NCBI RefSeq assembly: GCF_007971525.1
Contig: NZ_CP042437.1
Location: 2,666,001-2,730,000 of the forward strand
Length of the DNA: 64,000 nucleotides
Direction: 5' to 3'
Source of the DNA: Mucilaginibacter ginsenosidivorax
GTDB taxonomy: Bacteria > Bacteroidota > Bacteroidia > Sphingobacteriales > Sphingobacteriaceae
Position 1 is the stretch's first letter, and each line of letters begins with the position of its first letter. Positions 51,276 to 56,562 of this stretch are shown here, piece after piece. A program made the translations under genes and the position numbers. The notes beneath the pieces are model-generated. The model had not been told where the DNA came from, searched no databases, and saw only the letters and a list, made by a program, of their open reading frames with translations.

Positions 51276-52625
51276 TTACTTTATCCCCGGCAACCCCGTA
51301 ACTGCCTCTAACAATCCAGCCTCGCTCGTTGCGTTCACATTCACCAGGTAAAATGGCTTGCTGTCCTGGGCTGCTGCCCATCGCCATTCAAGCTGGCTAA
51401 CAGTTTTCAGCCTGCCATTATCAAACCACCAGGCCGAGTATATCTTATCCGCGCCTTTGGTAAGGATGCCCGAGTAAACTTCGCGCCCGGCTATAGTTTG
51501 CTTGCGGATGCTGGTAAAATTGTACCCACTGCCCTGCCAGCAAATCATGGGGTTATGTTCGGGGCCGTAAAAGGGTGTGGGCTTCAGGTACACCAGTTGG
51601 CCGGGTTTATCAAACTTAATAACGCCGCTTTCCAGCAGTTGCTTTTTGTAGCCGCTCAGGGTTACCGCATAGGCCCCTTTATTGCTCAGTACATCCATGC
51701 TTTTTAAATTGCATGAGATAACGATGAGTGCCCCGGCAAATAGCAAATGAATAAAAGGATACCTTACCTCATCAGGCACCAGCCGGATAAGCTGATCCTG
51801 GCGCGGGTGCCTCTCCACTTTTGCCGATTTTTTCAGGTAAAAATTACTCAGCCACAACAAGGGGAGTACAACATATACCAACAGGCAAATAACGCCTGTT
51901 ACATCATGAAAAATACTGGCTGCTGGTATTTTAAACAATACCAGCAGCATAATACGGCATAGGTTGACTGCAATATTCAGCAAAAAGGTAAGCGCCAGCA
52001 GCAGCACAATTTTAATAAAACCAAGCTGATTGACCTTTTGACGCTGACAATGGGCTATTATAAACAGGCATATAATAAACGACATGCTCAGCATATGCAG
52101 CCCGGCACAGGCCTGGTCTACAGAAAACTCCCTGCCGTTTAGCTCAATAATATTGCCCGATGCATGGGCGGCAATTCCAACCCTGCTTAAAATGCCGGCC
52201 ACTACCTCGCTCAGCCAGATCCTGATGGGGAAGCTGATCGCATTGCTGAGATACATAAACAGCGGCGAAACCAGCAATAGCAGGAAAAATAAAACCAGGC
52301 TCACTTTCCCTTTAAAATTCTCAAAAAACAATAATACGGCAAACAACAAGGCAACAAACAGCGTGGTTTTAACCGGAAAAACAAGCGCGATAACACTAAA
52401 TATTGTTGAGGGTAAAAAGTACCGCATGGAGTATTCCCCTGCCTTTACACGGCAGATATAAGGGGCAAGTACTATCCCCATTAACAAATCGGCATTCCAC
52501 AAAAAATAAATGGAAAGTAATTTAATGCCGATAACCAGATAAACCAGGCAGCAGCCATTTATCAGCAAACGACTGCTGCCCCAGGCCCGCCCCGCAAAAG
52601 GTGGCTTAAATATCCTGCTTAGCAT
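51276..52625 (-). CDS. xrtN: Exosortase N with C-terminal EpsI-like domain
   Basis: The 449-residue membrane protein has about eight helices and the exosortase catalytic set: Cys173 in QACAGLH, Arg224 in NLCRIML and His240 in IFHDVTG. Exosortases cut a C-terminal PEP-CTERM-like tail and pass the protein on to the surface. After a helix near 291-306 there is a soluble domain with NPMICWQGSGY (Cys about 362), like the EpsI/DUF3485 domain fused to some exosortases. The gene overlaps its probable substrate, the VIT protein, by 20 bp, which is the recognised XrtN arrangement. Confidence 0.9.
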   Translation of the reverse strand: MLSRIFKPPFAGRAWGSSRLLINGCCLVYLVIGIKLLSIYFLWNADLLMGIVLAPYICRVKAGEYSMRYFLPSTIFSVIALVFPVKTTLFVALLFAVLLFFENFKGKVSLVLFFLLLLVSPLFMYLSNAISFPIRIWLSEVVAGILSRVGIAAHASGNIIELNGREFSVDQACAGLHMLSMSFIICLFIIAHCQRQKVNQLGFIKIVLLLALTFLLNIAVNLCRIMLLVLFKIPAASIFHDVTGVICLLVYVVLPLLWLSNFYLKKSAKVERHPRQDQLIRLVPDEVRYPFIHLLFAGALIVISCNLKSMDVLSNKGAYAVTLSGYKKQLLESGVIKFDKPGQLVYLKPTPFYGPEHNPMICWQGSGYNFTSIRKQTIAGREVYSGILTKGADKIYSAWWFDNGRLKTVSQLEWRWAAAQDSKPFYLVNVNATSEAGLLEAVTGLPGIK

Positions 52626-55104
52626 ATTTGGCGCGGTATACTAAAAAGTTAATTACCGCAAGCGCTATGAGCACCAACAGCCACTCGCCCGGTTCGGGTA
52701 CTGCGCCTGATGATTTCATGGAGGCATTTTTAAGACTATCCTTATTTTCATCAATTCCGAAACGCTCATAATCTGCCTGGGTTTCCAGCACGATAAGGCT
52801 GGATACCGGCGAGGCTATATAGGCCTGTTCGGCCTCCCGGATGATATCCGGCTGCACATAGGTTTTATCAAAATAATGCGGACCAACCTTTTTCATAACA
52901 TCGTTATAGGCAAACAAACGCAGCAAATGATCGGGGGCGTTACTTTTCAGGGTATCGGTGGTTTGACTGATGATAAACCCCGATTGATCCAGCACTACAT
53001 GCCCGGCATCTTCCTGCGATTGAATAAACCGGTGCTGGTTAAGTTTATCTAACAAGGCCGGCAACTCGCCGTTATCGTAAACAAACACCCGCATTTCTTT
53101 TAAAGCTTTCAGGTAAGGGGTTATTTTGGTGCCAATATTGAACATCCGTACAGGTTTTGCGGTTGCCAGGTAAGCGGTAAGGCGCCGCTGAAATTCCGAT
53201 TCGTCCAAATCTCCCAGGTTGGGTGCTATATCGGCGCATTTGGTAATTATCAAGGCCTTTTCGGCATCTTTAACCTCGTTAACAGGGAACAGGCTAAAAT
53301 TCAGTTTCTGCGCCCTGGCAAATACTTCAGCCTTGTTTTCTTCTGTCACTTCTTTTAGTTCTCCATCGTAGTAATACACCTTTTTTGTTTTGATGGCCTG
53401 CCATAGGCTATCAAATTCGGTTATATTCCAGGAGCTGTTCAAATCAAGGTACACAGCTGCGGGGTCGAAAGCGGCATACTGCGGCTTATAGTTTTCCAGC
53501 TTGTAGCCTGCCCCCGCAAAGGTAAATGGCATATTGGCAAGTGGCGGAGCGGCAAAAACAATCTCATCATCGGCCTGGTATTTTCTGTCGGCTGTAAAAA
53601 CACCTTCGCTCAATTCTTCAAAACCAGGCAGGCTAAACAGCGGTGGCTTTTTCGAAAACGCTACTTGTAAGGTTTCATCGGCGCCGGTAGCCGGCGGCCC
53701 GTCAAAATAAATACTTTCATAAACCAGCTGTGTGCCCTGCTGCCTGAGCGGGCTGGTAACGCCTATCCTGAACTTACGGGCCTCGGTCGTTGTAACCGGG
53801 AAAATCCTTACACTCACAGTATTGCCTTCCTGCCAATGAATTACCGATGGATCGTGCCGCTCAACGCCAACCACTGTTTTATAAGCCGAATCGGCTTTAG
53901 CCTTGGTAGTTAACCGCGACTTTGCTTCCCTGCCATCTATCCATAATGATAACGAACTCACAACCGAGCCCTCGGGCAGGTGAAAAGTATAAATGGCCTC
54001 TTCGCCGGGCCACCAGGTGCGGGTTTCGCTGCTTTTTATAAACAAGTTTTTTTCGGTGTAAGCCAGCCGGTATTCGGGGAATATTTTAACGTTGGTTACT
54101 ACCGATGCGGTTTTCAGTTTATCGCCGCTCCATAACCTGTCCTGCGCCTTGTGCCGCGCATCGTACATGGCCTCCAGTATTTTGATGCGTTCGTGCTCCT
54201 CTAAATTGGTTTGGCCGCAAAACAGGCTGGCCAACACCACAAGCGGATCGTGCTTTAAAGGTTCGTCGAAAGATGCTTTATGAAAATCGGTATTCCATAG
54301 CCAGTTTTCCTGCAGGTTTACGGTTTTGTAAACCAGGTTGGCTTTAATAATACGCTCGGCTATACTGTTTTTAGGAATATTTTGACTGATAACCACCCAC
54401 GACGGCAATTTACCTTCGGCCAAAGTATTGTGGTTAACGGCCAGGTTAACCTGTTTGTTGATGCTGTGCCATTGCCCGATAAACAAGGCGCACACTAAAA
54501 CCGGAACAAACACACCCGCCGCAAGCGCCATTTTTAACGACCGGCTGCCTGCCACATTCCTTTTAATTACTATAAAAGTGACGATAGCCAATGCTACCGG
54601 CGCAAAAACATGTAGCGAGATACCGATGGCTATGGCGGCTATGAGGCCAATAATATACATAGAGGTAAGGTAAAGGCTGTAATAAACAAACAGCAAAAAG
54701 GCTGCCCCCAGCAAAAACACTACAACGTGTTTACCCGCGGCAGTCAGCTGCTCCATAAACAAGGCCATTATTAACGCTACACACGATAGGCAAATAACCA
54801 CACAAAGCCAGGGTACCGAAATATCAAACACATTCATGCTGCGGTTTAAAGCAAACGCGCTGATAAACCAAAGCATAAAAAGCATTACCCAGTAGGCCAG
54901 CCGCTTTGGCCGTTTAAACACTACAACAAAAAAATAGGTTACAGAAAATAAATAGTTGATAAAAAACACGCCAAAAGCGCCTCCATCATTCAGTTCAAAC
55001 AAGCTGGTTTCGGTAATACCAAACAAGGCAGCCGAGGCCAGTATCAGCACCAGCCCGATTTTAATCACCCTATCTTCGGATAAAATTGCTTTAAGAATTT
55101 TCAT
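52606..55104 (-). CDS. XrtN-system VIT domain protein with PEP-CTERM-like sorting tail
   Basis: From ATG 55104 it has 832 residues: about seven membrane helices in the first 210, a long soluble region with a VIT domain at about 345-465 (AIYTFHLPEGSVVSSLSLWIDGR, HWQEGNTVSVRIFPVTTTE) and a C-terminal tail with VPEPGEWLLVLIALAVINF followed by basic YRAKYAK. The tail is a classic sorting signal: motif, helix and positive end. It is the dedicated target of the adjoining exosortase. VIT domains otherwise pair with VWA, absent here. Confidence 0.92.
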   Translation of the reverse strand: MKILKAILSEDRVIKIGLVLILASAALFGITETSLFELNDGGAFGVFFINYLFSVTYFFVVVFKRPKRLAYWVMLFMLWFISAFALNRSMNVFDISVPWLCVVICLSCVALIMALFMEQLTAAGKHVVVFLLGAAFLLFVYYSLYLTSMYIIGLIAAIAIGISLHVFAPVALAIVTFIVIKRNVAGSRSLKMALAAGVFVPVLVCALFIGQWHSINKQVNLAVNHNTLAEGKLPSWVVISQNIPKNSIAERIIKANLVYKTVNLQENWLWNTDFHKASFDEPLKHDPLVVLASLFCGQTNLEEHERIKILEAMYDARHKAQDRLWSGDKLKTASVVTNVKIFPEYRLAYTEKNLFIKSSETRTWWPGEEAIYTFHLPEGSVVSSLSLWIDGREAKSRLTTKAKADSAYKTVVGVERHDPSVIHWQEGNTVSVRIFPVTTTEARKFRIGVTSPLRQQGTQLVYESIYFDGPPATGADETLQVAFSKKPPLFSLPGFEELSEGVFTADRKYQADDEIVFAAPPLANMPFTFAGAGYKLENYKPQYAAFDPAAVYLDLNSSWNITEFDSLWQAIKTKKVYYYDGELKEVTEENKAEVFARAQKLNFSLFPVNEVKDAEKALIITKCADIAPNLGDLDESEFQRRLTAYLATAKPVRMFNIGTKITPYLKALKEMRVFVYDNGELPALLDKLNQHRFIQSQEDAGHVVLDQSGFIISQTTDTLKSNAPDHLLRLFAYNDVMKKVGPHYFDKTYVQPDIIREAEQAYIASPVSSLIVLETQADYERFGIDENKDSLKNASMKSSGAVPEPGEWLLVLIALAVINFLVYRAKYAKQDI

Positions 55105-55155
55105 TTTTTGTTTATTTAAAAGAACTTTGAAATACAAAGTATATGAGTAAAAAAA

Positions 55156-55458
55156 TTACAGCTTTTGCTGTTTTATTAAATTTTCGAGGGCAAGCAGGTG
55201 CAGCCTGAATGCCGCCCGGCCTTTCTCGGATGCAAGGTATTTGGTATTGGGCTTGCGGCCAATAAAACTCTTTTGCACCTGAATGTATTCTTCCTTTTCC
55301 AGCGCTTTCAGGTGCGATGCCAGGTTGCCGTCGGTAAGGTTAAGCAACTCCTTAAGTGCATTAAAATCATAACTTTCATTGGCAACCAGTACGCTCATAA
55401 TTTGCAGGCGTATCCGGTTTTCAAAAGCTTTATCAAATTGTTCTAACGAGATCTTCAC
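55156..55458 (-). CDS. Winged-helix transcriptional regulator of the XrtN operon
   Basis: The 100-residue protein is an ArsR/MarR-like single winged helix: FENRIRLQIMSVLVANESYDFNALKELLNLTDGNLASHLKALEKEEYIQVQKSFIGRKPNTKYLAS, close to the HTH_34-type family. It starts with GTG that overlaps the stop of the membrane protein upstream (GTGA), so translation is coupled. It probably represses this operon; a short inverted repeat CTTTG-TTTTT-CAAAG lies at the predicted promoter. Confidence 0.9.
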   Translation of the reverse strand: MKISLEQFDKAFENRIRLQIMSVLVANESYDFNALKELLNLTDGNLASHLKALEKEEYIQVQKSFIGRKPNTKYLASEKGRAAFRLHLLALENLIKQQKL

Positions 55459-56060
55459 TTATCGTATTTAAAATGCATTACCGTGCCGTAAATAATGTGG
55501 AGCAAGCCAAAACCTATCGCCCAGCATCGTAAGCCATAGCCAGGCATTAATGCACACAGCAAACCTAATAAAATCTCGATTATCCCCAAGCTTTTTACGC
55601 CAGAATACGTGTAATGACTACCCGCAACCAGTGCCATACCATAAAAAATGAGTGTAGCAGGCGCAACAACGCCGTAATAACCGCGATATATTAAAATAAA
55701 AGTAAATAAGCCCCCGCTCACCAAAGGGATGGCCATATTGATAAGTAAGCGCTGGCTGCCGGTATTCCAAAATGGCTGCCCAAGTTTTTTTGCCTTACGG
55801 ATAGAAAGCCAAACGCCTGTGCCAATAGAGAGGACAAGAACGCCAAACGCCACTATACATAACTGAATAATTACTGCAAAATCGTTACGCAAAAGCCCGA
55901 CACTTTCATGTGTTAATATTTCCCAGCCTAAAAATGCACCTATAAGGGCATATATCCCAGCCATTACGCCCGACAGGCCGCTCAGCGAAATAAATTTGGC
56001 CGACCGCTCCATCAGGTCCCGGATAGAGCTTAATTCTGCATGAATGTCTTGATCTTTCAT
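55455..56060 (-). CDS. Six-helix membrane protein, first gene of XrtN operon
   Basis: From ATG 56060 the protein has 201 residues with about six membrane helices (GLSGVMAGIYALIGAFLGW, IIQLCIVAFGVLVLSIG and others) and a short polar N-terminus. I do not recognise a function; proteins of this type often precede a small HTH regulator in Bacteroidota, suggesting a signal-sensing pair. The start at 56060 is supported by the promoter box at 56079-56086, which the longer frame (56081) would overlap. Confidence 0.8.
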   Translation of the reverse strand: MKDQDIHAELSSIRDLMERSAKFISLSGLSGVMAGIYALIGAFLGWEILTHESVGLLRNDFAVIIQLCIVAFGVLVLSIGTGVWLSIRKAKKLGQPFWNTGSQRLLINMAIPLVSGGLFTFILIYRGYYGVVAPATLIFYGMALVAGSHYTYSGVKSLGIIEILLGLLCALMPGYGLRCWAIGFGLLHIIYGTVMHFKYDK

Positions 56061-56078
56061 TAAAAGCACTTTGTTTTT

Positions 56079-56108
56079 CAAAGCTACATATTAAAATCAA
56101 AAATGCAA
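56079..56108 (-). promoter_or_regulatory. XrtN operon promoter TTG-N19-TAGCTTTG
   Basis: Minus strand: TTG at 56106-56108, a 19-bp spacer and TAGCTTTG at 56079-56086, an exact match to the Bacteroidota -33/-7 layout. RNA start near 56073 gives a leader of about 12 nt. CTTTG-TTTTT-CAAAG (56069-56083) overlaps the start site. Confidence 0.7.
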
Positions 56109-56215
56109 GAGGCGGGGAGATATTTTTTTCAGAGGCTATTAAGAAAAACCATTATTGAGCGCTAAAGTCTGGCTAAACGTAGGGGTGTGGAATGTGGTAT
56201 ATCGCATGTCGGCGA

Positions 56216-56383
56216 CGACTCACCCGGTCGGGGCTACGCCCGACCACCCTCTCTCCGGCTAAAGCCGCAAAGAGGGTTTCAGGAATTTAAATTTAATAAA
56301 TTATTGACTATCAATATACTAAACCCTCTTTCCACCGCAGGTAAAGAGAGGGTGGCCCAGCGCAGCGTCGGCCGGGTGAGTCG
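56216..56383. repeat. 168-bp inverted-repeat element, copy 1
   Basis: Ends CGACTCACCCGG and CCGGGTGAGTCG are exact inverse repeats. Inside, ACCCTCTCT...AGAGAGGGT forms a second stem and TTTCCACCGCAGGT lies near the right arm. The copy at 58932-59099 has the same length and orientation. Confidence 0.85.
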
Positions 56384-56562
56384 TAGCCGGCGTTCAACCG
56401 AACGGTTATATATATTCAAACAGGTGATGGTGTGTATAAAGCCACAACATTTTTATCTTATGATTTTTTAGACAGCTTTTCAGAAATAAGAAGTTTTTTT
56501 GAAGACAGCCTATGCGGATGCTTTTTCTGAGCCAGTTATTAATAACAGCTCAAAAAAAATGG

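Follow-up and report, generated by a model that had tools for sequence, protein, structure and literature searches.

Exosortase N and its VIT-domain target as a probable output of a widespread HTH_34 repressor cassette in Bacteroidota

Exosortase N (XrtN) and its partner, a protein with a VIT domain, are both represented by curated NCBI families (TIGR04476 and TIGR04477), so that the pairing of this exosortase with its target is already known. Another exosortase, XrtF of Flavobacterium johnsoniae, has been deleted, which lowered surface colonisation and biofilm formation (PMC10936215), and EpsI regions fused to EpsH proteins were described by Haft et al. 2006 (PMC1569441). A small autorepressor encoded together with a polytopic membrane protein is known from Bacillus subtilis (SdpR/SdpI; PMC1626106). 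Here we study a stretch of 64,000 nucleotides of Mucilaginibacter ginsenosidivorax (contig NZ_CP042437.1, positions 2,666,001 to 2,730,000; hereafter the window), in which the genes for a membrane protein (MEM), a winged-helix regulator (HTH), the VIT protein and XrtN follow each other in this order on the minus strand. We propose that a known exosortase with its one VIT substrate probably stands under the control of a repressor cassette, MEM-HTH, which is widespread in Bacteroidota and uses HTH_34 and sites of the form CTTTG-N5-CAAAG. A search of open-access papers returned no paper on XrtN, PF13601, Mucilaginibacter exosortases or CreD with a winged-helix regulator, and no account of the MEM-HTH cassette; the wider HTH-switched gene set around XrtN-VIT is apparently undescribed.

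The palindrome and the MEM-HTH cassette

Gene order was compared in 79 named loci plus the window (n = 80), the related loci having been picked by a pattern scan that is biased towards conserved XrtN. In the 1.39 Mb of these loci the palindrome CTTTG-N5-CAAAG occurs 136 times, while for the full set of 320 arms with the same GC content the mean is 1.9 and the next highest value 9. Its copies are found at MEM (50/52), after HTH (49/52) and near VIT (46/74), and about four lie elsewhere. Since they contain 47 different spacers, their conservation is not mere sequence relatedness. Similarly, MEM loci sampled irrespective of XrtN possess two copies in 24-25 of 30 cases, and 48 of 56 distinct MEM-HTH cassettes have the copy before MEM (O1). 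In XrtN-VIT loci unlinked to MEM-HTH the palindrome often still precedes VIT, and all 19 such loci that bear it belong to genomes with MEM; two XrtN-VIT loci could be assessed in genomes without MEM (L223 of G109, and L102), and neither has it. CreD loci display the palindrome outside creD in 10 of 20 genomes with MEM versus 0 of 10 without (p = 0.011; three loci of one genus with the palindrome inside creD were excluded from the count).

A pattern search of the whole 7.8 Mb genome found ten exact copies, six intergenic and four inside genes. The pattern read backwards occurs 6 times, and with this figure the four intragenic copies were set aside as chance rather than regulatory sites. The intergenic copies precede the genes for MEM, VIT, a CreD homologue (PF06123, 490 bits), an MpaB-like oxygenase, a B12-binding radical SAM protein and a membrane protein of 162 aa. 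In E. coli, CreD belongs to the CreBC regulon. The sites at the radical SAM, CreD and 162-aa genes gain independent support from relatives, because radical SAM genes of the same type and CreD adjoin MEM-HTH there and the 162-aa protein resembles genes located between HTH and VIT.

HTH matches PF13601 (HTH_34) with 94.4 bits (gathering cut-off 27 bits) and is the sole protein of the genome above this cut-off; MEM matches no curated family of Pfam or NCBIfam. The initial annotation had assigned to the two the role of sensor in an XrtN operon. Indeed, the pair stands beside xrtN in relatives, upstream and on the same strand, in 52 of the 80 loci, but its distribution is far wider. Among 392 genomes of the phylum searched for MEM, CreD and XrtN, the first is present in 139, CreD in 95 and XrtN above its cut-off in 5, so that roughly one in three of the genomes sampled harbours the cassette. 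Of 128 genomes with a strong MEM, 43 have CreD at most 10 kb downstream of it, and both genes co-occur beyond chance (p = 4e-10, uncorrected for kinship). Moreover, 1.2-3.8 kb of other genes separate HTH from VIT in many relatives; in many loci of Pedobacter, Pontibacter, Niastella and others these include CreD and diacylglycerol kinase. As MEM is far commoner than XrtN and often accompanied by CreD, MEM-HTH is a general cassette with XrtN-VIT as one guest, and as the putative operator also marks other genes, it is more fitting to regard XrtN-VIT as one output of the HTH regulator than as the object of a dedicated sensor.

Some MEM-HTH clusters (L213, L215) contain DUF4153, Coq4-like, LpxG/YaeI-like phosphoesterase and other envelope-type genes, with neither CreD nor XrtN nearby.

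Two kinds of site, proposed control and alternatives

The two sites at the locus differ in their surroundings. O1 shares bases with the -7 box upstream of MEM, TAGCTTTG, which conforms to TAnnTTTG, the sigma-A box described in F. psychrophilum (PMC9723704). Every one of the 50 related MEM promoters with the operator has a TTG at a distance of 19-20 bases upstream of the box, which is more than chance would give; in other cassettes a TTG is found 17-22 bases before the box in 43 of 48. O2, the copy before VIT, is preceded by a T-run ending exactly 9 bases upstream in 46 of 49 XrtN-linked loci and in 33 of 37 other cassettes with O2, whereas O1 never has a T-run of six or more. Unlinked VIT loci often possess a short leader between O1 and O2 with a terminator-like hairpin and a T-run (L062, L069, L072, L049, L086); in linked loci no hairpin is conserved at this place (mean z 0.11).

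In the mechanism that we propose, HTH would bind CTTTG-N5-CAAAG. At O1 it would cover the -7 box and repress its own operon, repression being the simplest reading because of this overlap; at O2 it would impose a second block on the genes that follow. MEM probably senses the state of the inner membrane and would remove or inactivate HTH, by analogy with the action of SdpI on SdpR. Release would free VIT-XrtN, CreD, the MpaB-like oxygenase, the B12-radical SAM protein and the small membrane protein here, and in relatives also DUF4153, diacylglycerol kinase and the LpxG/YaeI-like phosphoesterase. XrtN would then cut the PEPxEW tail of VIT by means of its Cys/Arg/His residues, with the EpsI-like domain aiding, as its family membership suggests. 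Such a cut would exchange the C-terminal anchor of VIT for a new end, perhaps via transfer to an acceptor. The most likely role of XrtN-VIT is that of an accessory in an inner-membrane regulon repressed by HTH_34.

Several observations weigh against this proposal. The choice of HTH as the protein that binds the palindrome is drawn from co-occurrence and position. MEM matches no sensor family: Pfam and NCBIfam gave no SdpI model for it, nor was there one for its relatives among the 25 families listed, and HTH scores only 14.4 bits with SdpR, where the cut-off is 100 bits. O2 lacks the -33 TTG in XrtN-linked loci (present in 0/49) and almost always in other cassettes with O2 (present in 2/37), and hence may not act as a promoter-operator. 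The unlinked VIT loci L084, L100, L109 and L114 are devoid of the palindrome despite MEM in the genome, so that control of VIT by HTH is not universal. Finally, the loci are related and their counts are not independent trials.

These points give some room to other explanations. It is possible, if clearly less probable than repression at both sites, that the regulator and sites are the same and HTH activates, or that VIT-XrtN is transcribed only when polymerase reads on from the MEM promoter, O2 being a control site linked to termination and not the operator of a separate promoter. The missing -33 element, the fixed distance of the T-run and the hairpins of several unlinked loci would suit such an arrangement, while the position of O1 over the -7 box fits repression better than activation. 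A more specific form is suggested by the geometry of roadblocks: a repressor on O2 that halts RNA polymerase would leave it positioned roughly over the T-run. O2 could then be a repressor-dependent terminator where HTH stalls RNA polymerase, the same protein blocking starts at O1 and ending transcripts at O2 across Bacteroidota with the exosortase as one output; we hold this to be rather unlikely.

It is more doubtful still that another factor binds the palindrome, or that the latter is a mere promoter variant, and that HTH_34 acts elsewhere. Admittedly, HTH binding is an assumption, and part of the conservation is that of the promoter, because the left arm doubles as the sigma-A box; the right arm and the fixed spacing of five bases, however, lie outside the promoter consensus, O2 copies keep the palindrome without a -33 element, and its presence tracks MEM-HTH. 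Least probable is a self-contained four-gene XrtN operon whose MEM and HTH serve solely to monitor the state of VIT and XrtN. The four genes do adjoin one another here and in many Mucilaginibacter, and the linkage recurs in the 52 loci mentioned above, but the rarity of XrtN compared with MEM, the palindromes before CreD, radical SAM and other genes of the same genome and the genes intervening between HTH and VIT in many relatives all speak against such dedication. Control of XrtN-VIT by the general repressor cassette remains our preferred reading.

The exosortase, its target and the layout of the locus

Judged by their sequences, XrtN and VIT are a further member of the known kind of exosortase and target. 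XrtN scores 407.2 bits with TIGR04476 (curated cut-off 200 bits; residues 24-427 of 449 aligned) and is the only exosortase of the genome above cut-off, and the product of the gene directly upstream scores 985.6 bits with TIGR04477. This bears out the single VIT target assigned to XrtN at the outset, as does the gene order, in which VIT immediately precedes XrtN in 78 of 80 loci. Cys173, Arg224 and His240, a triad in the membrane core, are invariant across 58 XrtN sequences. The AlphaFold2 (AF2) model of XrtN (pLDDT 90) found no strong match in the PDB, and the membrane core was in none among the matches listed. In the contigs of L110 and L114 XrtN looks split across two reading frames, which is either a real split or a sequencing error.

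The C-terminal part of XrtN had been annotated as an EpsI-like extension. It is a normal part of the family, because the TIGR04476 alignment extends across it, and its reading as a distant EpsI/DUF3485-like domain is supported. In Chlorobia-like genomes this stretch matches separate proteins that adjoin exosortases and pass the DUF3485 (PF11984) cut-off, and a profile-profile comparison with stand-alone DUF3485 proteins gave 93.7% (E 1.9e-7, 59 columns), versus 0.3% for a control with MEM. Among the isolated domains of 58 XrtN homologues, 43 matched XrtD (best 6.6e-6), 30 matched XrtO (best 6.4e-6) and 4 weakly matched EpsI_fam; such a fusion is not new, as XrtD and XrtO demonstrate. With a classical EpsI profile, likewise built from Chlorobia-like genomes, the comparison was not significant and aligned the motif alone; significance was reached with the second, closer group of DUF3485 proteins only. 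The domain of the window had no direct match above the curated cut-offs of the EpsI models TIGR02914 and PF11984, for which the best scores among XrtN family members were E 0.0035 and E 0.0041, respectively. When the modelled domain was compared with the PDB, a coherent but weak set appeared (Mog1, PsbP, DcrB, SciW; Z up to 7.2), a hint below the level at which a fold could be claimed. SciW binds membrane helices, which may hint at how EpsI could handle the PEP-CTERM helix.

The VIT protein consists of seven N-terminal membrane helices (hydrophobic segments), an ectodomain and a PEP-CTERM-like C-terminal tail. Its AF2 model (pLDDT 87.9) has a helical N-terminus, and the modelled ectodomain, with VIT and a vWA-like domain, resembles 6fpz_A (Z 15.0, 383 residues). 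The tail was unmatched by the PEP-CTERM model PF07589, as were the controls. As the N-terminal helices stay in the membrane, a cut in the tail would not free the protein.

The positions of all elements are listed in Table 1. The four genes, their coordinates and overlaps (4 bases for MEM/HTH, 20 for VIT/XrtN) and the promoter TTG-N19-TAGCTTTG (56108-56079) agree with the initial annotation, which had moreover assumed one transcript; the latter is doubtful in view of the T-run and second operator between HTH and VIT. Upstream of the promoter, the intergenic sequence 56200-56390 contains CCACCCTCTCTCC and AGAGAGGGTGGCC, blocks that resemble inverted repeats and may belong to a small repeat element. 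An Rfam search of the region gave no match.

Table 1. Features of the XrtN locus (positions in the window)
Feature	Position	Strand	Remarks
MEM	55455..56060	-	ATG at 56060; 201 aa; six hydrophobic segments; signature MERSSRFISLSGLSGVxAG
HTH	55156..55458	-	100-aa winged-helix regulator; PF13601 HTH_34
VIT protein	52606..55104	-	ATG at 55104; 832 aa; TIGR04477
Exosortase N (XrtN)	51276..52625	-	449 aa; TIGR04476
-33 element TTG of MEM promoter	56106..56108	-	sequence and related MEM promoters
-7 box TAGCTTTG	56079..56086	-	fits sigma-A consensus TAnnTTTG; final five bases are the O1 left arm
Putative operator O1, CTTTG-N5-CAAAG, before MEM	56069..56083		palindrome, conserved in relatives
Putative operator O2, CTTTG-N5-CAAAG, before VIT	55125..55139		palindrome, conserved in relatives
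T-run	55149..55155	-	begins right after HTH stop codon; ends exactly 9 nt before O2
EpsI/DUF3485-like domain of XrtN (distant), residues ~310-449	51276..51698	-	invariant H357, P359, C362, G367, W399, W400
VIT ectodomain, residues 327-779	52768..54126	-	AF2 model versus PDB: resembles inter-alpha-inhibitor heavy chain 1
Sorting tail PEPGEW, helix, basic end	52606..52698	-	P803, E804, P805, E807, W808 invariant in 54 homologues

Comparison with known systems

A place for XrtN-VIT in a defined regulon would make the task of XrtN testable by way of the short palindrome, a single regulator, the membrane protein and the other genes with the palindrome, and bears on the question why Bacteroidota maintain an exosortase with only one target. 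Likewise, the cassette would tie CreD to its control in this phylum. As in the CreBC regulon of E. coli, a CreD homologue is among the marked genes; the probable control is different, namely HTH_34 and a palindrome instead of the two-component pair CreB/CreC (CreBC was not searched for). The combination of a small regulator and a polytopic membrane protein is shared with SdpR/SdpI, a works-like analogy only, since MEM has no SdpI family match and HTH is far below the SdpR cut-off.

With regard to the exosortase, the locus shares with the XrtF system of F. johnsoniae a Bacteroidota exosortase with its own associated protein, while subfamily and target are different. As in XrtD, XrtO and similar exosortases with a fused EpsI region (TIGR02914/DUF3485), a domain with the motif H-x-x-x-x-C-x-x-x-x-G follows the membrane core, although XrtN of the window has no EpsI model match above cut-off. 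A region of the VIT protein (residues 82-455) matches the target of the MSEP-CTERM system (TIGR04286), whose exosortase is XrtK, with 62.9 bits; this is under the 150-bit cut-off, and the tail motif is another one. The closest likeness is to the XrtN and VIT families themselves, an exosortase with one adjacent dedicated VIT-domain target and full-length matches far above cut-off: the proteins are no different, and what the present locus adds is their regulatory context.

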